From a virus, in IMG/VR virus record IMGVR_UViG_3300025137_000088, positions 1-40,163 of that record: a stretch of DNA of 40,163 nt; one strand, given 5' to 3'. The notes under the pieces are model-generated. The model saw only the letters and a list, made by a program, of their open reading frames with translations, made no database searches and was not told the origin of the DNA. Shown here in pieces: positions 2,155-8,974 of the stretch. Made by a program: the position numbers and the translations under genes. The number at the start of each line of letters is the position of its first letter. Position 1 is the stretch's first letter.

Positions 2155-3950
2155 TTTGAATAACATGTATCCCATCCACCTTCAGCATCTAAAGGTAGAT
2201 TCGGTGCCCATGAAGGGGCGGTGCGCATGATGGAGAGCATGGTATCCATTCGTTCCTCTGGCTTGTTATCGTCTCCGATTGCAATGATCTCATCATGGAC
2301 TGTTAAAACAACCTCAAATTCTGGTAACTGTTGTATAGCGAGCATTTGTTCGCAGATCACAATCCGAGCTAAAGCTTGAACTATGTTTTCAGTGATCTTT
2401 CCACCGTAAGTGAACTCTGTTTTGCTATTAACTTTATAGGACAGCTTACCGTTTTCTAAAAGTTCAAGACCGTGGTAACGAAGCCCTAAACCATTAGGCA
2501 TCATGATTGCTGAAGGCGCTGCCTGCAGACACTTGTACTGGTAGGCAAATCTTTCACCGTTACAAAGGGTTAAAGCTTGCCTCAATATACGCTCGGACTG
2601 TTCCCAGAGCGCTGGTATACCAGCGTAGTTGGCGCGATATGCGTTAACAGCTTCAAGGCACTCTTCAAATGGCAGATCAATCTTTGCTGCTTTTAAGGTA
2701 GCCATGAATTTTTGAGCGCCCATGCCGTAGCCAAGGCCTAAGATTGCAGTCTTGCCGACAAACCGTTCGACTTCATTAGCCTTGGTGATAGGGCGGTTGT
2801 AAAGATCGCTAGCAAATGCTGAGTAAACATCTGCTCCGTAGTAATACATTTCCAATAGATTGTCTTGGTCTGCAAGCCAAGCAAGCATCCGAGATTCGAT
2901 GTTTGAAAGGTCAGCCACGTACATAAGCTTGCCTTCGGGCGCTTCCAGTACGCGTCTTAGCTCGCTGCCGCGAGGTAGGTTTTGCAGGTTTATTTTTTCG
3001 GTGCCCCCAAATCGGCCAGTGTGGGCCGCGTAATAACGTAGCGGGGCGGGGATGCAGCCTTCAGCGTTTGTGCTGTCGATGAAGCGTTGGGCGCGAGTCT
3101 CATTGAGACGACTCTTTACTGCTTCACGACCGGCGAACACATGGGCGAACTCAGGGTTCTTTTGTGTCCATTGCCGAAAGGCTGCATCGTTTTTACCGAA
3201 GGCAGGGATTTTTTTGCCAGTAGTGGGGCTCGTCTTGGTAGGTACTGTGAGGCCCTGCTCTTCGGCCCATGCTGCGAATTTTTGGTTACTTGCCAAGGTG
3301 CTACGGTCTAGGCCCGATTGTTCGATGGCGGTGGTGCTTGCTTGAACTGCTGCGTCCAAGAACGACTGTGTCTTTTCTATGTTCACGACGATCTTTGGTT
3401 CGCAAAACATACGCGTAGTGAGATCAATTACCTCCATCTCAATATCAGGGTATTTGACCCTGAGTTCGTGATAGATGGCGTAGGTAAGATCGACATCTTG
3501 AATGCAGTAGCCTGCGAGTGAGTCTTCGATGTCTGGTGGTAAGTCGTATATGCCTTTGGCATTGACTAACTCTTCGCCTTTACGCATGGACTCATCATTA
3601 GGAAAGCATCGTACAGCCACATCTTTTAGACGGGCTGATTGCCCAGGCCAACGGCCACGAGCCATTGCTGCGGTGTCCATGTAGTACATTGGTTTATGGT
3701 TGTACAGTTGGGTAAGCAGATAGCCGTCAAATGGTGTGTTGTGGCACACCAGCATGGCTTCTTCCCAATTGATGTCGTCGAGTGCTGCTTCTGTTTCGTC
3801 TTCACCAAACCATTCAGTTGGCTCGTCGTTTACCTTGATCCCTACACCCCACACTTTGAACATAGGGTGCTTGATGTACTCCATTACGGACATCTTGGTG
3901 AGCGAGACTTTAGGGTCGTAGTAGGTTTCAAAGTCGAGTGTTACGAGCAT
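2151..3950 (-). CDS. Family A DNA polymerase with 3'-5' exonuclease
   Basis: 599 residues, the replicative polymerase. Proofreading domain: exo I LDFETYYD (D6, E8), exo II VCHNTPFDGY (68-77), exo III YCIQDVDLTYAIY (148-160). Polymerase domain: TGRFGG...NLQNLPRG (311-328), motif A VADLSNIESR (D347, E352), motif B RFVGKTAILGLGYG (396-409) and motif C VHDE (551-554). There is no 5'-3' exonuclease domain, as in T7 polymerase. The position equivalent to E. coli Pol I Phe762 is Leu404, a variant known from environmental phage polymerases. It overlaps the upstream small gene by 10 nt and csrA by 4 nt, so the three are translationally linked. Confidence 0.96.
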   Translation of the reverse strand: MLVTLDFETYYDPKVSLTKMSVMEYIKHPMFKVWGVGIKVNDEPTEWFGEDETEAALDDINWEEAMLVCHNTPFDGYLLTQLYNHKPMYYMDTAAMARGRWPGQSARLKDVAVRCFPNDESMRKGEELVNAKGIYDLPPDIEDSLAGYCIQDVDLTYAIYHELRVKYPDIEMEVIDLTTRMFCEPKIVVNIEKTQSFLDAAVQASTTAIEQSGLDRSTLASNQKFAAWAEEQGLTVPTKTSPTTGKKIPAFGKNDAAFRQWTQKNPEFAHVFAGREAVKSRLNETRAQRFIDSTNAEGCIPAPLRYYAAHTGRFGGTEKINLQNLPRGSELRRVLEAPEGKLMYVADLSNIESRMLAWLADQDNLLEMYYYGADVYSAFASDLYNRPITKANEVERFVGKTAILGLGYGMGAQKFMATLKAAKIDLPFEECLEAVNAYRANYAGIPALWEQSERILRQALTLCNGERFAYQYKCLQAAPSAIMMPNGLGLRYHGLELLENGKLSYKVNSKTEFTYGGKITENIVQALARIVICEQMLAIQQLPEFEVVLTVHDEIIAIGDDNKPEERMDTMLSIMRTAPSWAPNLPLDAEGGWDTCYSK

Positions 3951-4720: not shown

Positions 4721-5145
4721 TAGTATTCACCTAAAAGGTCGCGATCTGCGTTGTAAGCACTGTAATCACCTGAGGGGTCGGGATCATTGTGTACAAACTC
4801 TAATTCAGTTGACCATTCGTTGCCGTTGTCCCAAGTTATATTGAGAATGTCGCGTCTTACATTCCAATGGCTTACGTCGTCCCAACAATAGCCATGAGGA
4901 AGATATATTCTCCCGTAAACTATGTCTGAGGATGCTTGTTGTTCTATATATATTTCTTCAGATTCTTGGTCGTTAACGTATTCGTCGTCAAGGTGGGGGT
5001 CTTCGTAAACTTCTGGCTCAAAAGTGTGGCCGCATTCTGGGCACTCGCCAATCGTTGTGCATTCAATATAGTTGCGGCCCATGTCATAGCCACACTCTTC
5101 ACAAGGATTAACGGATGGTGTTTCTGCTGTTACTGCTCCACCCAC
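4720..5145 (-). CDS. Zinc-ribbon protein of unknown function
   Basis: About 141 residues. Near the N terminus there are two Cys pairs, CEECGY and CPECGH, about 20 residues apart: a four-cysteine zinc ribbon. The rest is acidic and Tyr/Trp-rich, ending NADRDLLGEY. The probable start is the GTG at 5145, five nucleotides after AGGAGG (5151-5156); an in-frame GTG at 5151 would lie inside that SD. The start region lies inside the 3' end of the upstream membrane-protein gene. The tail DRDLL also occurs near the C terminus of the JAB protein (6501-7268), which could mean a shared partner but is a short match. Function unknown. Confidence 0.8.
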   Translation of the reverse strand: MGGAVTAETPSVNPCEECGYDMGRNYIECTTIGECPECGHTFEPEVYEDPHLDDEYVNDQESEEIYIEQQASSDIVYGRIYLPHGYCWDDVSHWNVRRDILNITWDNGNEWSTELEFVHNDPDPSGDYSAYNADRDLLGEY

Positions 5146-5414
5146 ATCCACCTCCTATAAGGAAACTTTTTGACTTTAACGAACGACAGTTTTTCGTGTC
5201 GCATGGTGCGTTTCATAACGAACAGCACGACTGATACAACTAAGCCACCAAGTAGCGCAGCCATCATGCCGCTGAACGTGCCAGCGAAAACGATGATCAA
5301 AAAGAATGTGATGAGCACATCGAACAAGATGTCGTAGGTGATTACTTTGCGCACACCAAACTTGAATAATAAGAACAACATGCCTGCGGCAGCGATTAGT
5401 CCAGCTAAGATCAT
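5130..5414 (-). CDS. Small membrane protein, about three transmembrane segments
   Basis: 94 residues with hydrophobic segments at about 2-18, 29-46 and 48-66, then a basic tail (MKRTMRHEK, KVKKFPYRR) expected on the cytoplasmic side. Its ATG overlaps the stop of the 45-aa reading frame upstream (ATGA), and its last codons overlap the start of the zinc-ribbon gene. It could be an early membrane effector or a holin-like protein; the sequence does not decide. Confidence 0.8.
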   Translation of the reverse strand: MILAGLIAAAGMLFLLFKFGVRKVITYDILFDVLITFFLIIVFAGTFSGMMAALLGGLVVSVVLFVMKRTMRHEKLSFVKVKKFPYRRWMWVEQ

Positions 5415-5548
5415 TGGTCTTTGTCCTCTTCTTCTTTAGTTTGTTGATTGGCTAGAGTCTTCAGGTGGTTCTGGATCTCCAGAGCTATCTCCATGAACGT
5501 GTCCAGTTCTTCGCCTTCCAGTATCAGTTTCATCTCTAGCTGTTTCAT
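5411..5548 (-). CDS. Small acidic helical protein, overlapping another frame
   Basis: 45 residues, MKQLEMKLILEGEEL at the start and TKEEEDKDQ at the end, strongly helical and acidic. ATG at 5548; the stop overlaps the next gene as ATGA. An AAGAGA sequence lies about 8 nt upstream. Its composition and 3' coupling make it the more convincing coding frame here. It lies almost wholly inside the 5436-5618 frame, so the two may be a true overlapping pair or only this one may be real. Confidence 0.6.
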   Translation of the reverse strand: MKQLEMKLILEGEELDTFMEIALEIQNHLKTLANQQTKEEEDKDQ

Positions 5549-5618
5549 GTTCGTTGTCTCTTAGAAATTGGCGGATTGTTAGGTAGGTCAGTACGAATTG
5601 AATTATTTTTTGGATCAT
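5436..5618 (-). CDS. Possible 60-aa protein coupled to the E2 gene; mostly overlaps another frame
   Basis: Starts at an ATGA overlap with the stop of the E2-like gene. The first 20 residues (MIQKIIQFVLTYLTIRQFLR) look like a short membrane or amphipathic helix. The remainder is a low-quality Gly/Asp/Pro/Ser-rich stretch that coincides with the well-formed acidic frame at 5411-5548. Either a short membrane peptide with an uninformative tail or a chance frame. Confidence 0.35.
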   Translation of the reverse strand: MIQKIIQFVLTYLTIRQFLRDNEHETARDETDTGRRRTGHVHGDSSGDPEPPEDSSQSTN

Positions 5619-6499
5619 GCTGCTTCAGCGTGTTGTTGGACTTTGGGCCAGTTGGCGGCGAACCTACCGGCTCCATCGTGGGGGTTATAGCTTTCCATGA
5701 ACATCGCGAGGACTGTCACAGCCGTAGGAATGTCGAAGTCGTTGAGCGCTTCATAGATAGGCCCACCGAAATCGCCAAGACACGGGGTGGTTGCATCTGT
5801 CATGTGGGGATGCAATACCTCACGGCCTTCAAAACCTCTGTATCGTGTAGATCCAGCCGCCGCACGGAAAGTTACACGAGAGGTGTTATAAAACCTGTTG
5901 ATATGAAAATCAGCAATGATGCGTGGTATGCGAATGGCTGGATATTCGTCGACGGTGTCGGTGCTTAGTGCAATAGCAGGTGAGAATGTTGCAGATACTT
6001 TGAATTTATTTTTGGCGTATTTATGCTGTCGAAGTTTTAACGAGCCCTTTTTATAGAGGCTATTAAGTCGAAGCTCGTGCTCCCAATCGTTCACTTTGAA
6101 AACATCAACGTGGTTAGATTTGTTGGCAATGTTTGCGCGTTTGAATTTTAGCCGTCGTAAGTTTTCTGTTATTGCGTTATATCTTCCAAAATATTCGTCA
6201 ACATGATTTCGGAAGCGGCGAGCTTCGGCCCGTAGTTCGCGAACTAAGTAATTACGTTCTTTCCGTAAGTGCTCTGCAATCTTTTTGTCAGGGCATATTT
6301 TTAAGTAGTCCCAGTAAGTAGGCGATACGCACGTAGCTGCGTCTAGCTGCCGTTGAGCGCGATGACGTCTGATTTTGGCGTTTCGGTATTTATTACGGTG
6401 CAATTCGGCGGTGTTGGCACAATCAGCTATTTCGATATCGAGCCTATCTAACTCGGCTTCGCTCATATTGATTTCAATTGATTTTGTTAAGGCGTACAT
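5615..6499 (-). CDS. E2-like ubiquitin-conjugating protein with long N-terminal coiled coil
   Basis: 294 residues from the ATG at 6499, one nucleotide after the JAB stop and 9 nt after GGAGAG. Residues 12-125 are charged and predicted coiled coil. The C-terminal part carries an E2 signature: LHPHMTDATTPCLGDFGG at 229-246, with HPH (230-232) in place of the eukaryotic HPN and candidate catalytic Cys240 in PCLG, followed by a helix (PTAVTVLAMFMESYNP). Bacterial E2-like proteins of JAB/E1/Ubl operons show this H-P-H...C-L-G pattern. Its expected role is to take an activated Ubl from the E1 as a thioester and pass it to a target. It is the fourth enzyme-type gene of the cluster and coupled to the JAB gene. 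No RING-type E3 is visible. Confidence 0.82.
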   Translation of the reverse strand: MYALTKSIEINMSEAELDRLDIEIADCANTAELHRNKYRNAKIRRHRAQRQLDAATCVSPTYWDYLKICPDKKIAEHLRKERNYLVRELRAEARRFRNHVDEYFGRYNAITENLRRLKFKRANIANKSNHVDVFKVNDWEHELRLNSLYKKGSLKLRQHKYAKNKFKVSATFSPAIALSTDTVDEYPAIRIPRIIADFHINRFYNTSRVTFRAAAGSTRYRGFEGREVLHPHMTDATTPCLGDFGGPIYEALNDFDIPTAVTVLAMFMESYNPHDGAGRFAANWPKVQQHAEAA

Positions 6500-6500
6500 T

Positions 6501-7268
6501 TTAGTGTTCTCTCCATCCGAATGGGTCGCTGAGTAGGTCACGGTCATCTTCGTAAGGGTCGTAGTAGTAACCGATGTTTTGCTGACCTTGTTGCGCCGTT
6601 ACTTTGTAAGGTGGCGTTTGGCCCAGCGATGGTGCGTTCCAAGATTTGCTATAAACTTTAGGCGCACTTTTCTTGACGTTCTTTTTGATCAGCTTGTCGA
6701 GACGAGATTTAATTGATTTGTCCATCGGAGTTGGTTGGACACAGTTTTGTACGCATTGGTGTATGCAATTGTTCTGAACGTCGTACACATCTACTTTGGA
6801 AGCGCCGCGCTTGTTGTAGATGCCACGGATGAATTGTTTGCATCCGTTTTCTAAGAACTCTTCGATTTGTATTTCGTCTTGGCTCGACGGGCTAACGCCC
6901 ATGTTTACGTGGGAATGACCCCAGTAAAATAGTTTCTCTGACTCTTTGTTGTTTTCTTCTAGCTCGATGACTAGATTGCACAACGTATCGGCTGTGATGT
7001 CTGTCTCAGTACCGTTGACGGTTTGTTCTGGAACATAGATGTCAGTGATTAAGTAGTTGCCATCGTCAAGTGTTTCTACAAGACCAAGCCAACCCACTTC
7101 AGTTTCGACAGCGTTTACGAGGTAGGCAATCATGTCCCAAGCTTCTTGTGTGTAGTACACAGATGGCGGATCTGGGAGGCCCCAGTCATATAAAAGGTCA
7201 GTGGTTGCTGTCATTGACGTACTAGACAGGTCTGCCTGTTTAGGCGCTTGCCATGTCGTCTTGTTCAT
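6501..7268 (-). CDS. JAB/JAMM (Mov34-type) metallo-isopeptidase
   Basis: 255 residues. The JAMM zinc motif is complete: Glu57 in ETEVGW, then GHSH (His118, His120), seven residues, Ser128 and Asp131 (H-x-H-x7-S-x2-D). Enzymes of this family cleave after the C-terminal glycine of a ubiquitin-like protein, either to mature the precursor or to remove it from targets. The catalytic domain covers about 35-170; the rest is a basic linker (KLIKKNVKKSAPK), a Gln/Tyr-rich stretch and an acidic tail with DDRDLL. The start at 7268 has a full AAGGAGG SD and overlaps the E1 stop (ATGA). A stretch with four Cys (CIHQCVQNC plus Cys97) is unexplained. Confidence 0.92.
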   Translation of the reverse strand: MNKTTWQAPKQADLSSTSMTATTDLLYDWGLPDPPSVYYTQEAWDMIAYLVNAVETEVGWLGLVETLDDGNYLITDIYVPEQTVNGTETDITADTLCNLVIELEENNKESEKLFYWGHSHVNMGVSPSSQDEIQIEEFLENGCKQFIRGIYNKRGASKVDVYDVQNNCIHQCVQNCVQPTPMDKSIKSRLDKLIKKNVKKSAPKVYSKSWNAPSLGQTPPYKVTAQQGQQNIGYYYDPYEDDRDLLSDPFGWREH

Positions 7269-7954
7269 ATTGCCTCCTTAGTGCTCATGAGCATTGGTTT
7301 GAAGAAAACGTCGAGTTGTGCGGTGGCACATCCGTCGTTGAGTAGAAAATTCATGAACTCCCACACCGCCATGTTTGCGATAAGCGCAGCGGTAGGGCCA
7401 ACAGAGATACTGGTGCCGCACGGTGACACTTCGGCATCGTCATCACTGATAAGTGAGTCGAACCAAGCAGCACGTTGCTGTCTGTTTTGGGGAGAGAAGT
7501 GAGATATGTTGCCGTGAGTAGCACCCATGCGGGTCTCAAACACTTGCAACAACATGCTGTCGCCACTGGTTGATTGGGCTTCGATGATCTGTCTACGTGA
7601 GGCCATGCTGTCAGTAAGCAGAAACAAGAAGCCGTCGAATTGTCGCTGATCGATGCGTTCGTTTATGAAGCGCATGTTTTGGATCAAGTCGGCAGACACA
7701 CCAAGTTTCTTTTGTGCAAGATCTTTGAGTGCGTTTACTTTGTGCATACCTATGTGCTCGTGCAGATAGGCTTGGTTAGCGAGGTTGTGTGGCTCAACGA
7801 TGTCGTAGTCATACACATTGATGTTGGTAAGGCCCAACTCAATGAGTGACATGAACACACGCGAACCAGTCGCACCGGCACCTACGATATGGATCGGGAA
7901 ATCCTTGTAGTCGTAAGCACGGAAGATCGAATCGTGTCTGATGGTCGATAGCAT
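7265..7954 (-). CDS. ThiF/E1-like Ubl-activating enzyme
   Basis: 229 residues forming one ThiF adenylation domain. Nucleotide loop IVGAGATGS (23-31); acidic residues in VYDYDIVEPHNLANQ (47-61); Lys72; the magnesium Asp equivalent in LLTDSMASRR (Asp115). The Arg of the NLxRQ motif found in MoeB is absent (NLANQ). Candidate thioester Cys179 lies in SPCGTSISVGPTAAL, the position used by ThiF-like E1s. It should adenylate the C-terminal Gly of a Ubl and load it onto Cys179, then onto the E2. No second adenylation domain or separate Ubl-fold domain is present, so it probably acts as a homodimer like MoeB. The start at 7954 follows GAGGA by a normal distance. It overlaps the JAB gene by 4 nt. Confidence 0.92.
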   Translation of the reverse strand: MLSTIRHDSIFRAYDYKDFPIHIVGAGATGSRVFMSLIELGLTNINVYDYDIVEPHNLANQAYLHEHIGMHKVNALKDLAQKKLGVSADLIQNMRFINERIDQRQFDGFLFLLTDSMASRRQIIEAQSTSGDSMLLQVFETRMGATHGNISHFSPQNRQQRAAWFDSLISDDDAEVSPCGTSISVGPTAALIANMAVWEFMNFLLNDGCATAQLDVFFKPMLMSTKEAI

Positions 7955-7963
7955 AGTTAGTCC

Positions 7964-8260
7964 TCAGTGTTTGATTTGAACGGTGGTTTCACCTTCAAGA
8001 ATCGAAACTTGGATGTCTTCGTTACGGGTGTGGTTTACTGGGTGGTATGGGTCATCAACAAGTTCGACGGCCATGCCATACAGTATATTTGCCAGCAAGA
8101 TTTTTTCTTTTTGCTTTGTAGCGGGATCTCTAAAATGAACGCATATGGCCTCTTCCTTTTCCGCAAAAGCCTTTGCGACATCAACAAGAAGATCGGCCAT
8201 ACCTCCAACGGTTATGTTCTTGATTGCTTTCATGCCTGAGGCTTGTTCTTCTTCGGTCAT
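7964..8260 (-). CDS. 98-aa protein of unknown function within the Ubl cluster
   Basis: ATG at 8260 behind an AAAGGAGC SD. It is a mixed helix/strand protein: helix NITVGGMADLLVDVAKAFAEKEEAI, strand and Lys-rich loop (ATKQKEKILLANILYGM), then HTRNEDIQVSILEGETTVQIKH with strand character. It has no Cys motif, zinc motif or signal peptide. It lies between the structured intergenic RNA segment and the E1, nine nucleotides before the E1 start. Its position suggests a partner or substrate adaptor of the conjugation system; I do not recognise a family. Confidence 0.8.
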   Translation of the reverse strand: MTEEEQASGMKAIKNITVGGMADLLVDVAKAFAEKEEAICVHFRDPATKQKEKILLANILYGMAVELVDDPYHPVNHTRNEDIQVSILEGETTVQIKH

Positions 8261-8455: not shown

Positions 8456-8671
8456 CTAGTTGCCTTTGGCACCAATTGAATAGATGACGCGGTCGCCGTC
8501 TACCAAGGTGCCGTCGCGATCAACGGTGGCAGAGCCAACTTTGATCTGCCCAGCAGAGTTAGGCTCGATGCCAGCAGCGTCCAACGCATCGCCAACAGTA
8601 GAGCCAGCGGCAAGGCCAACCTCTGTGACTGCGCCTGGAACGCATACAACTTTTACAAATATCTCGGACAT
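8456..8671 (-). CDS. Ubiquitin-like beta-grasp protein 2 (ThiS/MoaD-like), tail -GAKGN
   Basis: 71 residues with the ThiS/MoaD/Ubl pattern: strand IFVKVVCVPGAVTEVGL, STVGDALDAAG helix, then a strand pair and LVDGDRVIYSIGAKGN at the C terminus. L-x-D-G-D-x-V before a Gly-rich tail is the beta-grasp sulfur-carrier/Ubl hallmark. The tail ends Gly-Asn, so one residue would have to be removed (the JAB enzyme is a candidate) to expose Gly for activation. It is a paralogue of the Ubl upstream. ATG at 8671; its AGGAGG SD lies in the loop of a perfect hairpin (8676-8690). As substrate of the E1/E2 pair it would form a phage-encoded modifier; a sulfur-carrier role is the alternative. Confidence 0.88.
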   Translation of the reverse strand: MSEIFVKVVCVPGAVTEVGLAAGSTVGDALDAAGIEPNSAGQIKVGSATVDRDGTLVDGDRVIYSIGAKGN

Positions 8672-8675
8672 GGGT

Positions 8676-8690
8676 GATACCTCCTGTATC
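8676..8690 (-). promoter_or_regulatory. SD-loop hairpin in front of Ubl 2, candidate CsrA site
   Basis: The minus strand reads GATAC-AGGAG-GTATC: a 5-bp perfect stem with the SD AGGAG as loop, 8 nt before the ATG at 8671. AUACAGGA fits the start of the CsrA consensus RUACARGGA. CsrA binding or the hairpin itself would limit translation of the Ubl. Confidence 0.6.
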
Positions 8691-8699
8691 TAGTGGCGG

Positions 8700-8744
8700 G
8701 TTTAGGGTTCTAGAACTTAGTGCCACGGTCTAAGGTCTAGGGTT
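8700..8744 (-). repeat. CTAGACCTTAGACC repeat with a degenerate second copy
   Basis: On the minus strand, CCCTAGACCTTAGACC (8727-8742) is followed by the degenerate copy CTAGAACCCTAAACC near 8700-8714. The same 16-mer occurs at 8975-8990 and 12083-12098, each time in a gap just upstream of a small leftward gene. Function unknown. Confidence 0.6.
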
Positions 8745-8749
8745 CTTTG

Positions 8750-8965
8750 TTAGCCATACATAAAACAGATAAATACTCTGTCACCGTCGTAAACTAACTG
8801 ATCGAAGTCGTTACTTTTGCCGTTTTTTGTGAGAACTGAAGATCGATAGCGAAGTAGTTTTGAATTAATTAGATTGGCTTTAAGACATAGGTCTAAAACA
8901 GAAGTTGGCGAATCGAATTCGACTTCTATGAAAGCGCCTGGGATGCGCCCTATTAATGCTTTCAT
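8750..8965 (-). CDS. Ubiquitin-like beta-grasp protein 1, tail ending in Gly
   Basis: 71 residues, the same length as Ubl 2 and clearly related: IPGAFIEVEF against VPGAVTEVGL, then TSVLDLC against STVGDAL, and LVYDGDRVFICFMYG against LVDGDRVIYSIGAKGN. The protein ends in Tyr-Gly, so its terminal Gly is already exposed and could be adenylated without processing. The ATG at 8965 is preceded by GGAGGACAG (a strong SD) and by a copy of the CTAGACC repeat. It is the first Ubl gene of the cluster. The two tails suggest different fates: one ready for use, one needing maturation. Confidence 0.83.
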   Translation of the reverse strand: MKALIGRIPGAFIEVEFDSPTSVLDLCLKANLINSKLLRYRSSVLTKNGKSNDFDQLVYDGDRVFICFMYG

Positions 8966-8974
8966 CTGTCCTCC

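Follow-up and report, generated by a model that had tools for sequence, protein, structure and literature searches.

Complete cassettes that join a ubiquitin-like protein (Ubl) to an E1, an E2 and a JAB peptidase have been discussed mainly as bacterial defence. Here we describe a putative set of this kind in a virus record from IMG/VR (40,163 bases; the whole stretch of DNA analysed, called the window below), in which two small Ubls lie side by side. The question raised by this locus is whether both are modifiers: an earlier note took them for paralogues and proposed either a pre-activated and a latent modifier, or a conjugated Ubl with a non-conjugated decoy or carrier. The genes concerned are the following.

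5615 to 6547, minus strand: E2-like protein with an N-terminal helical hairpin and the motif HPHMTDATTPCLGD (Cys256), assigned from alignments, a model and a link to contig L046
6501 to 7268, minus strand: JAB/JAMM metallopeptidase (PADLOC JAB model, 3.6e-4; weak RPN11 match; alignment)
7265 to 7954, minus strand: E1-like adenylating enzyme of the ThiF family with an invariant Cys179-Gly180 (PF00899, 4.1e-19; alignments; PADLOC E1-E2 models)
7964 to 8260, minus strand: accessory ORF of 98 aa between Ubl2 and E1; relatives have a different ORF or none there
8456 to 8671, minus strand: Ubl2, single-domain ubiquitin-like protein of 71 aa, putative core modifier of the operon; ORF found in every close relative
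8750 to 8965, minus strand: Ubl1, tail-less paralogue of Ubl2, 71 aa (ORF; profile homology; beta-grasp model and Foldseek)

The gene order can be read directly from the sequence. The E1 is 229 aa long, with PF00899 as the sole Pfam family above its cut-off and no rhodanese domain; its score with the NCBIfam PRTRC_ThiF model (33.3 bits, cut-off 144.75) places it outside the PRTRC group. In the JAB protein, Glu57, His118-Ser-His120, Ser128 and Asp131 are invariant in 11 sequences and make up a complete JAMM site. Both proteins are matched by PADLOC (E1-E2 and JAB models), and in Pfam, PHROGs and NCBIfam the two Ubls, JAB and the E2-like protein all stayed below the cut-offs for a named family. 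The Ubl cassette sits in the early gene region of this phage. The structural genes are encoded on the other strand, and the block that contains the operon has a DNA polymerase at its end, which would make a role in host takeover or in conflict with other phages more likely than a role in the virion.

The fourth component probably starts at Met17 (6499), directly after the JAB stop. Its motif LHPHM..PCLGD contains Pro247, His248, Cys256 and Gly258, all invariant in 15 aligned rows, and in its model (pLDDT 89) an extended helical hairpin is followed by a meander of strands, an HPH..C loop and three helices, a predicted order of elements like that of UBC domains. The corresponding stretch of a distant homologue, in L046, is YHPHISSDGRPCWGN, similar in sequence to the classical E2 motif, HPNI..G.ICLD. 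Motif, topology and context together make the protein a strong candidate for an E2. The Pfam UQ_con profile matched this protein in none of the records searched, and a Foldseek search of the PDB with the whole model was dominated by coiled coils with no UBC match; we therefore keep the qualified name 'E2-like'. The best matches in BFVD were unnamed or uncharacterised viral proteins. Identity to the homologue in L001 is 20% in the hairpin, 50% in the UBC-like part and 70% in the motif region, compared with 86% for E1, and the fast-evolving coiled-coil hairpin may serve as a target-recognition arm. In L004 (6043-6994) the E2-like gene appears to be split over two frames, through a frameshift or a sequencing error.

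The two 71-residue ORFs are present as the earlier note described, and their paralogy goes beyond chance, since a profile built from Ubl1 homologues alone recovered homologues of Ubl2 (E = 1.5e-6 to 1e-2). The local alignment of Ubl1 and Ubl2 scores 42, compared with 21.7 +/- 4.1 for shuffled sequences (p ~0.0015). The homology thus holds, but that both have 71 residues is coincidental: when the two are aligned, Ubl1 is shorter at the N-terminus and in the tail and carries an insertion of five residues. The AlphaFold model of Ubl1 (alignment of 20 sequences, pLDDT 79) is a beta-grasp, with 1ryj (Mth1743) as best match in the PDB (Foldseek probability 1.00) and MoaD, MOCS2A, ThiS, TtuB, SAMP1 and ubiquitin as further matches. 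The fold is thus assigned to Ubl1 by its model and to Ubl2 by profile homology; the Pfam matches of Ubl2 (Ub-Mut7C, RnfH, SAMP2) were all weak. On profile homology, the beta-grasp model and its PDB matches, we regard the two as paralogous ubiquitin-like proteins.

What distinguishes them is the C-terminus. The tails are those originally described, ..DGDRVFICFMYG in Ubl1 and ..DGDRVIYSIGAKGN in Ubl2, and are encoded as follows.

8459 to 8473, minus strand: tail codons of Ubl2, Gly-Ala-Lys-Gly-Asn (Asn71 at 8459-8461), invariant in close relatives with synonymous codon changes
8753 to 8773, minus strand: C-terminal end of Ubl1, FICFMYG, lacking KGN, with only seven residues, not nine, following DGDRV

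The condition that the earlier note had set as refuting, homologues in which both tails vary freely or lose the Gly, gave a split result: the GAKGN of Ubl2 is constant, and the tail of Ubl1 varies freely and mostly loses its terminal Gly. GAKGN is the Ubl2 tail in all close relatives. Its invariance must be selected, because all five codons carry synonymous changes and dS is >1 or saturated between several of the phages. A KGN tail is also found on 34 further distinct Ubl modules. Most of them belong to larger marine phages, whose Ubls end in ..ATGSVKGN and occur singly or in head-to-tail arrays of two to four; every junction in these tandem genes (2- to 4-mers) is KGN. Among 46 distinct modules, which were chosen by the KGN motif inside profile-detected Ubls, KGN is followed by a stop codon or by one of a dozen different residues. 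The only profile-detected Ubls without KGN were the tail-less copy of L027/L048 and the bacterial Ubl of L064 (KGG). In the Gly-Gly cousins L063 (IKGG), L064 (VKGG), L047 (EGG) and L009 (SGG), the GG aligns with the GN of the phage proteins, and the cousin in L050 likewise ends in Gly-Gly in the same columns. The conserved end of Ubl2 is therefore Gly-Asn, not Gly or Gly-Gly.

The claim that one residue must come off Ubl2 is doubtful in the light of these data. The Asn is as invariant as the preceding Lys and Gly, occupies the column of the second Gly of the Gly-Gly cousins, and variation starts only after it. Because conservation ends there, in the column that holds the final Gly of the cousins, Asn is possibly the working C-terminus; the simplest and, from the alignments, most likely reading is that Asn substitutes for the last Gly and forms the mature end of Ubl2. 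To our knowledge, E1 substrates have Gly as the rule, and we found no precedent for a reactive C-terminal Asn. The competing proposal, that JAB clips the Asn to leave Gly70 as the reactive residue of a latent Ubl2, with the invariant Asn as part of the JAB recognition site, is possible rather than probable. Known Ubls react through Gly (PMC1779556; also BilA, as summarised in PMC11354881), and the JAB of the operon has all catalytic residues. An invariant residue beyond a cut site would, however, be unusual; the relatives that add one residue, Gly in L007 and L008 (GAKGNG) and Lys in L041 (GAKGNK), still keep the Asn before it, and in the alignment, ending at KG would leave Ubl2 one residue short of the KGG ends of L063 and L064. 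Some marine Ubl genes do carry trimmable residues beyond KGN, from which it follows that cleavage exists in the Ubl family, and this cleavage could equally fall between Gly and Asn. In the gut phages L028-L031 and L042-L045 the Ubl tail is KxD[N/G][A/G], which fits neither the Asn-ended nor the Asn-clipped form in a simple way. Ubls with this KxD[N/G][A/G] ending, which also occur in L062, either stand alone in these gut-type phages or are joined to a conserved domain of ~130 aa.

The Ubl1 sample comprises four sequences from three contigs: among 17 close contigs, the window included, 3 carry the gene, L004 in two copies, and the sequences form a single clade in the tree (support 96/94). Their tails read FICFMYG, AVATGAT, VLTDEPKPYGTQGR and FINNGVKGF plus an extension, which gives homologue ends of TGAT, PYGTQGR, or NNGVKG prolonged by some 20 residues; the terminal Gly is lost in three of the four. 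After the DGDR turn, Ubl1 of the window and of L004a is two residues shorter than Ubl2, and its terminal Gly, besides not being conserved, lies two residues before the position that the ThiS/MoaD-type register requires. The pair of a pre-activated and a latent modifier proposed earlier is accordingly not supported. It is very unlikely that Ubl1 serves as another ready-made modifier, with its terminal Tyr-Gly as the point of conjugation; the Gly end, the retained fold, purifying selection and a strong Shine-Dalgarno sequence of its own would agree with this, but the tail is too short, homologues end in GAT, GTQGR or an extension after GVKG, and most relatives lack the gene. The data agree best with the other alternative of the earlier note, a conjugated Ubl beside a decoy or carrier that is not conjugated, because selection on the tail is strict in Ubl2 and lacking in Ubl1.

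Between the window and L004, dN/dS is ~0.3 for Ubl1, 0.14 for Ubl2 and 0.09 for E1; Ubl1 is under purifying selection that is weaker than that on Ubl2 or E1. That Ubl1 is a decaying duplicate without function is consistent with its patchy occurrence, the degenerate tails and the two L004 copies, which diverge from each other at dN/dS ~1.1. This is nevertheless unlikely given the value between the window and L004, the retained fold, the intact ORF with its strong Shine-Dalgarno sequence and the single old clade. A second tail-less Ubl occurs in L027/L048 (L027 5069-5275), beside a normal Ubl and a tri-Ubl, and the recurrence of tail-less Ubls beside normal ones argues for a function without conjugation. 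The stretch from the DNA-binding-like gene to Ubl2 has variable content, as seen by comparison of L007 and L008: where L007 has Ubl1, its sister phage L008 encodes an unassigned 352-aa protein (4863-5921). In L029, a 75-aa protein (2965-3192) just upstream of a Ubl fusion may be a further tail-less Ubl.

The similarity of Ubl1 to Mth1743, MoaD and ThiS, its closest folds, also bears on whether the Ubls are sulphur carriers of the ThiS/MoaD type for thio-modification instead of protein tags. The E1 is of the ThiF type, and the Ubl of the cousin L064 scores above the Pfam ThiS cut-off, with the ThiS profile ending on its second Gly. Against this, the operon groups the Ubl with neighbouring JAB and E2-like proteins, tandem Ubl precursors exist, and the cassette proteins scanned matched no thiamine, molybdenum or sulphur-transfer enzyme except ThiF-type E1 models; we consider a carrier role highly improbable.

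On balance, the operon probably encodes a phage ubiquitin-like conjugation cascade, in which Ubl2 is the modifier and carries the Asn end, and Ubl1 is a non-conjugated paralogue. The sequence itself shows the gene order, the paralogy, the tail conservation and the JAB catalytic residues; the enzymatic steps, like the Asn end and the part played by Ubl1, we infer as follows. The C-terminus of Ubl2 would be adenylated by E1 and handed, via Cys179, to Cys256 of the E2-like protein, which would attach Ubl2 to a target; JAB would take it off again and, in relatives, cut tandem precursors. The working tail is most likely ..Gly-Ala-Lys-Gly-Asn, with Asn in place of the second Gly as the mature C-terminal residue, and the 71-aa Ubl2 would therefore be made ready to use. 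Ubl1 would be an old paralogue that has kept the beta-grasp, is free of selection on its tail and is not conjugable in the same way; most likely it binds E1, E2 or JAB unattached, as a competitor, a dosage brake or an E2 partner.

The two genes also differ in the sequence around their ribosome-binding sites.

8676 to 8690, minus strand: inverted repeat GATAC-AGGAG-GTATC with the Shine-Dalgarno sequence of Ubl2 in its loop, single exact copy in the window
8969 to 8974, minus strand: Shine-Dalgarno sequence of Ubl1, GGAGGA, read directly, with no inverted repeat around it

Of the Shine-Dalgarno hairpin that had been ascribed to one gene only, the inverted repeat is indeed confined to Ubl2, but both genes have a strong Shine-Dalgarno sequence and the hairpin is thermodynamically weak: by fold alone it reaches -4.2 kcal/mol (z = +0.81). 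The repeat is kept in 9 of 14 close loci inspected; the L017-L020 group lacks it, and in L041 none was seen. One pair changes in a compensatory manner (GACAC..GTGTC in L021/L024), and the covariation was reached by 27 of 500 shuffles, which with so few sequences is no more than suggestive. An RNA hairpin and a DNA palindrome or operator are indistinguishable here, an operator being possible.

Prokaryotic Ubl operons and tandem Ubls are already known: Ubl-E1-E2-JAB operons were described as types 6a-6e, with tandem Ubls in type 6e, by Iyer, Burroughs and Aravind in 2006 (PMC1779556). The window resembles type 6 in its stand-alone small Ubl, ThiF-like E1 without rhodanese, adjacent JAB and E2-like protein, and differs in the phage genomes, the Gly-Asn tail instead of Gly, the tail-less Ubl paralogue and the long helical hairpin of the E2-like protein. 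The antiphage system BilABCD, as summarised in PMC11354881, likewise comprises four genes (E1, E2, JAB/JAMM and Ubl), and its JAB exposes the modifier C-terminus; BilA consists of two fused Ubl domains with a reactive Gly, whereas the window has two separate, phage-encoded single-domain ORFs and hence lies outside Bil as so described. CBASS Cap2 (E1-E2) and Cap3 (JAB) are similar in that the PADLOC models match and Cap2 is among the PDB matches, but no CD-NTase was seen in the window operon, E1 and E2 are separate genes, and the operon has its own Ubl. The crAss001 gp76-gp78 and Flavobacterium phage Fpv3 ThiF loci share an E1, a JAB and an E2-like neighbour with HSH..C, although E1 identity is only 25-27%, and the candidate Ubl domain of Fpv3 ends in Gly-Gly inside a larger protein. 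Neither Ubl1 nor Ubl2 was found in the named phage genomes searched; a Ubl1-specific scan returned L004 again and nothing else, and scans with alignments of the E2-like protein and of Ubl2 added no close relatives to those already in hand. One scan of bacterial genomes found only three distant cassettes. The Rubrobacter metagenome-assembled genome L063 (3497-5680) has a complete E2-JAB-E1-Ubl cassette, the Ubl ending in IKGG plus a long extension. In the open-access literature searched, we met no account of phage Ubl cassettes that combine Gly-Asn tails with a tail-less partner.

That phages of several kinds own Ubl cassettes raises the question of what is tagged in the host. The invariant Gly-Asn tail offers a direct test of the long-held rule that E1 substrates end in Gly, the tail-less Ubl1 is a natural competitor for study, and the minimal set of Ubl2, E1, E2-like protein and JAB is small enough to be rebuilt in vitro. 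More tentatively, we suggest a phage Ubl family that might be activated and conjugated via a C-terminal Asn, with poly-Ubl precursors cut after Asn and a recurring tail-less paralogue that would regulate the cascade while staying unattached itself. The head-to-tail Ubls of the marine relatives, with their invariant junction tail and one fused extension, recall polyubiquitin and ubiquitin-ribosomal fusions, differing in the junction (KGN instead of GG) and in the JAB-type peptidase of the operon. The extension follows a tetra-Ubl in L035 (7905-9056), and a protein that by eye resembles it is encoded by a separate small gene beside the Ubls of L027 (4750-5049), an arrangement comparable to the ubiquitin-ribosomal protein fusions.
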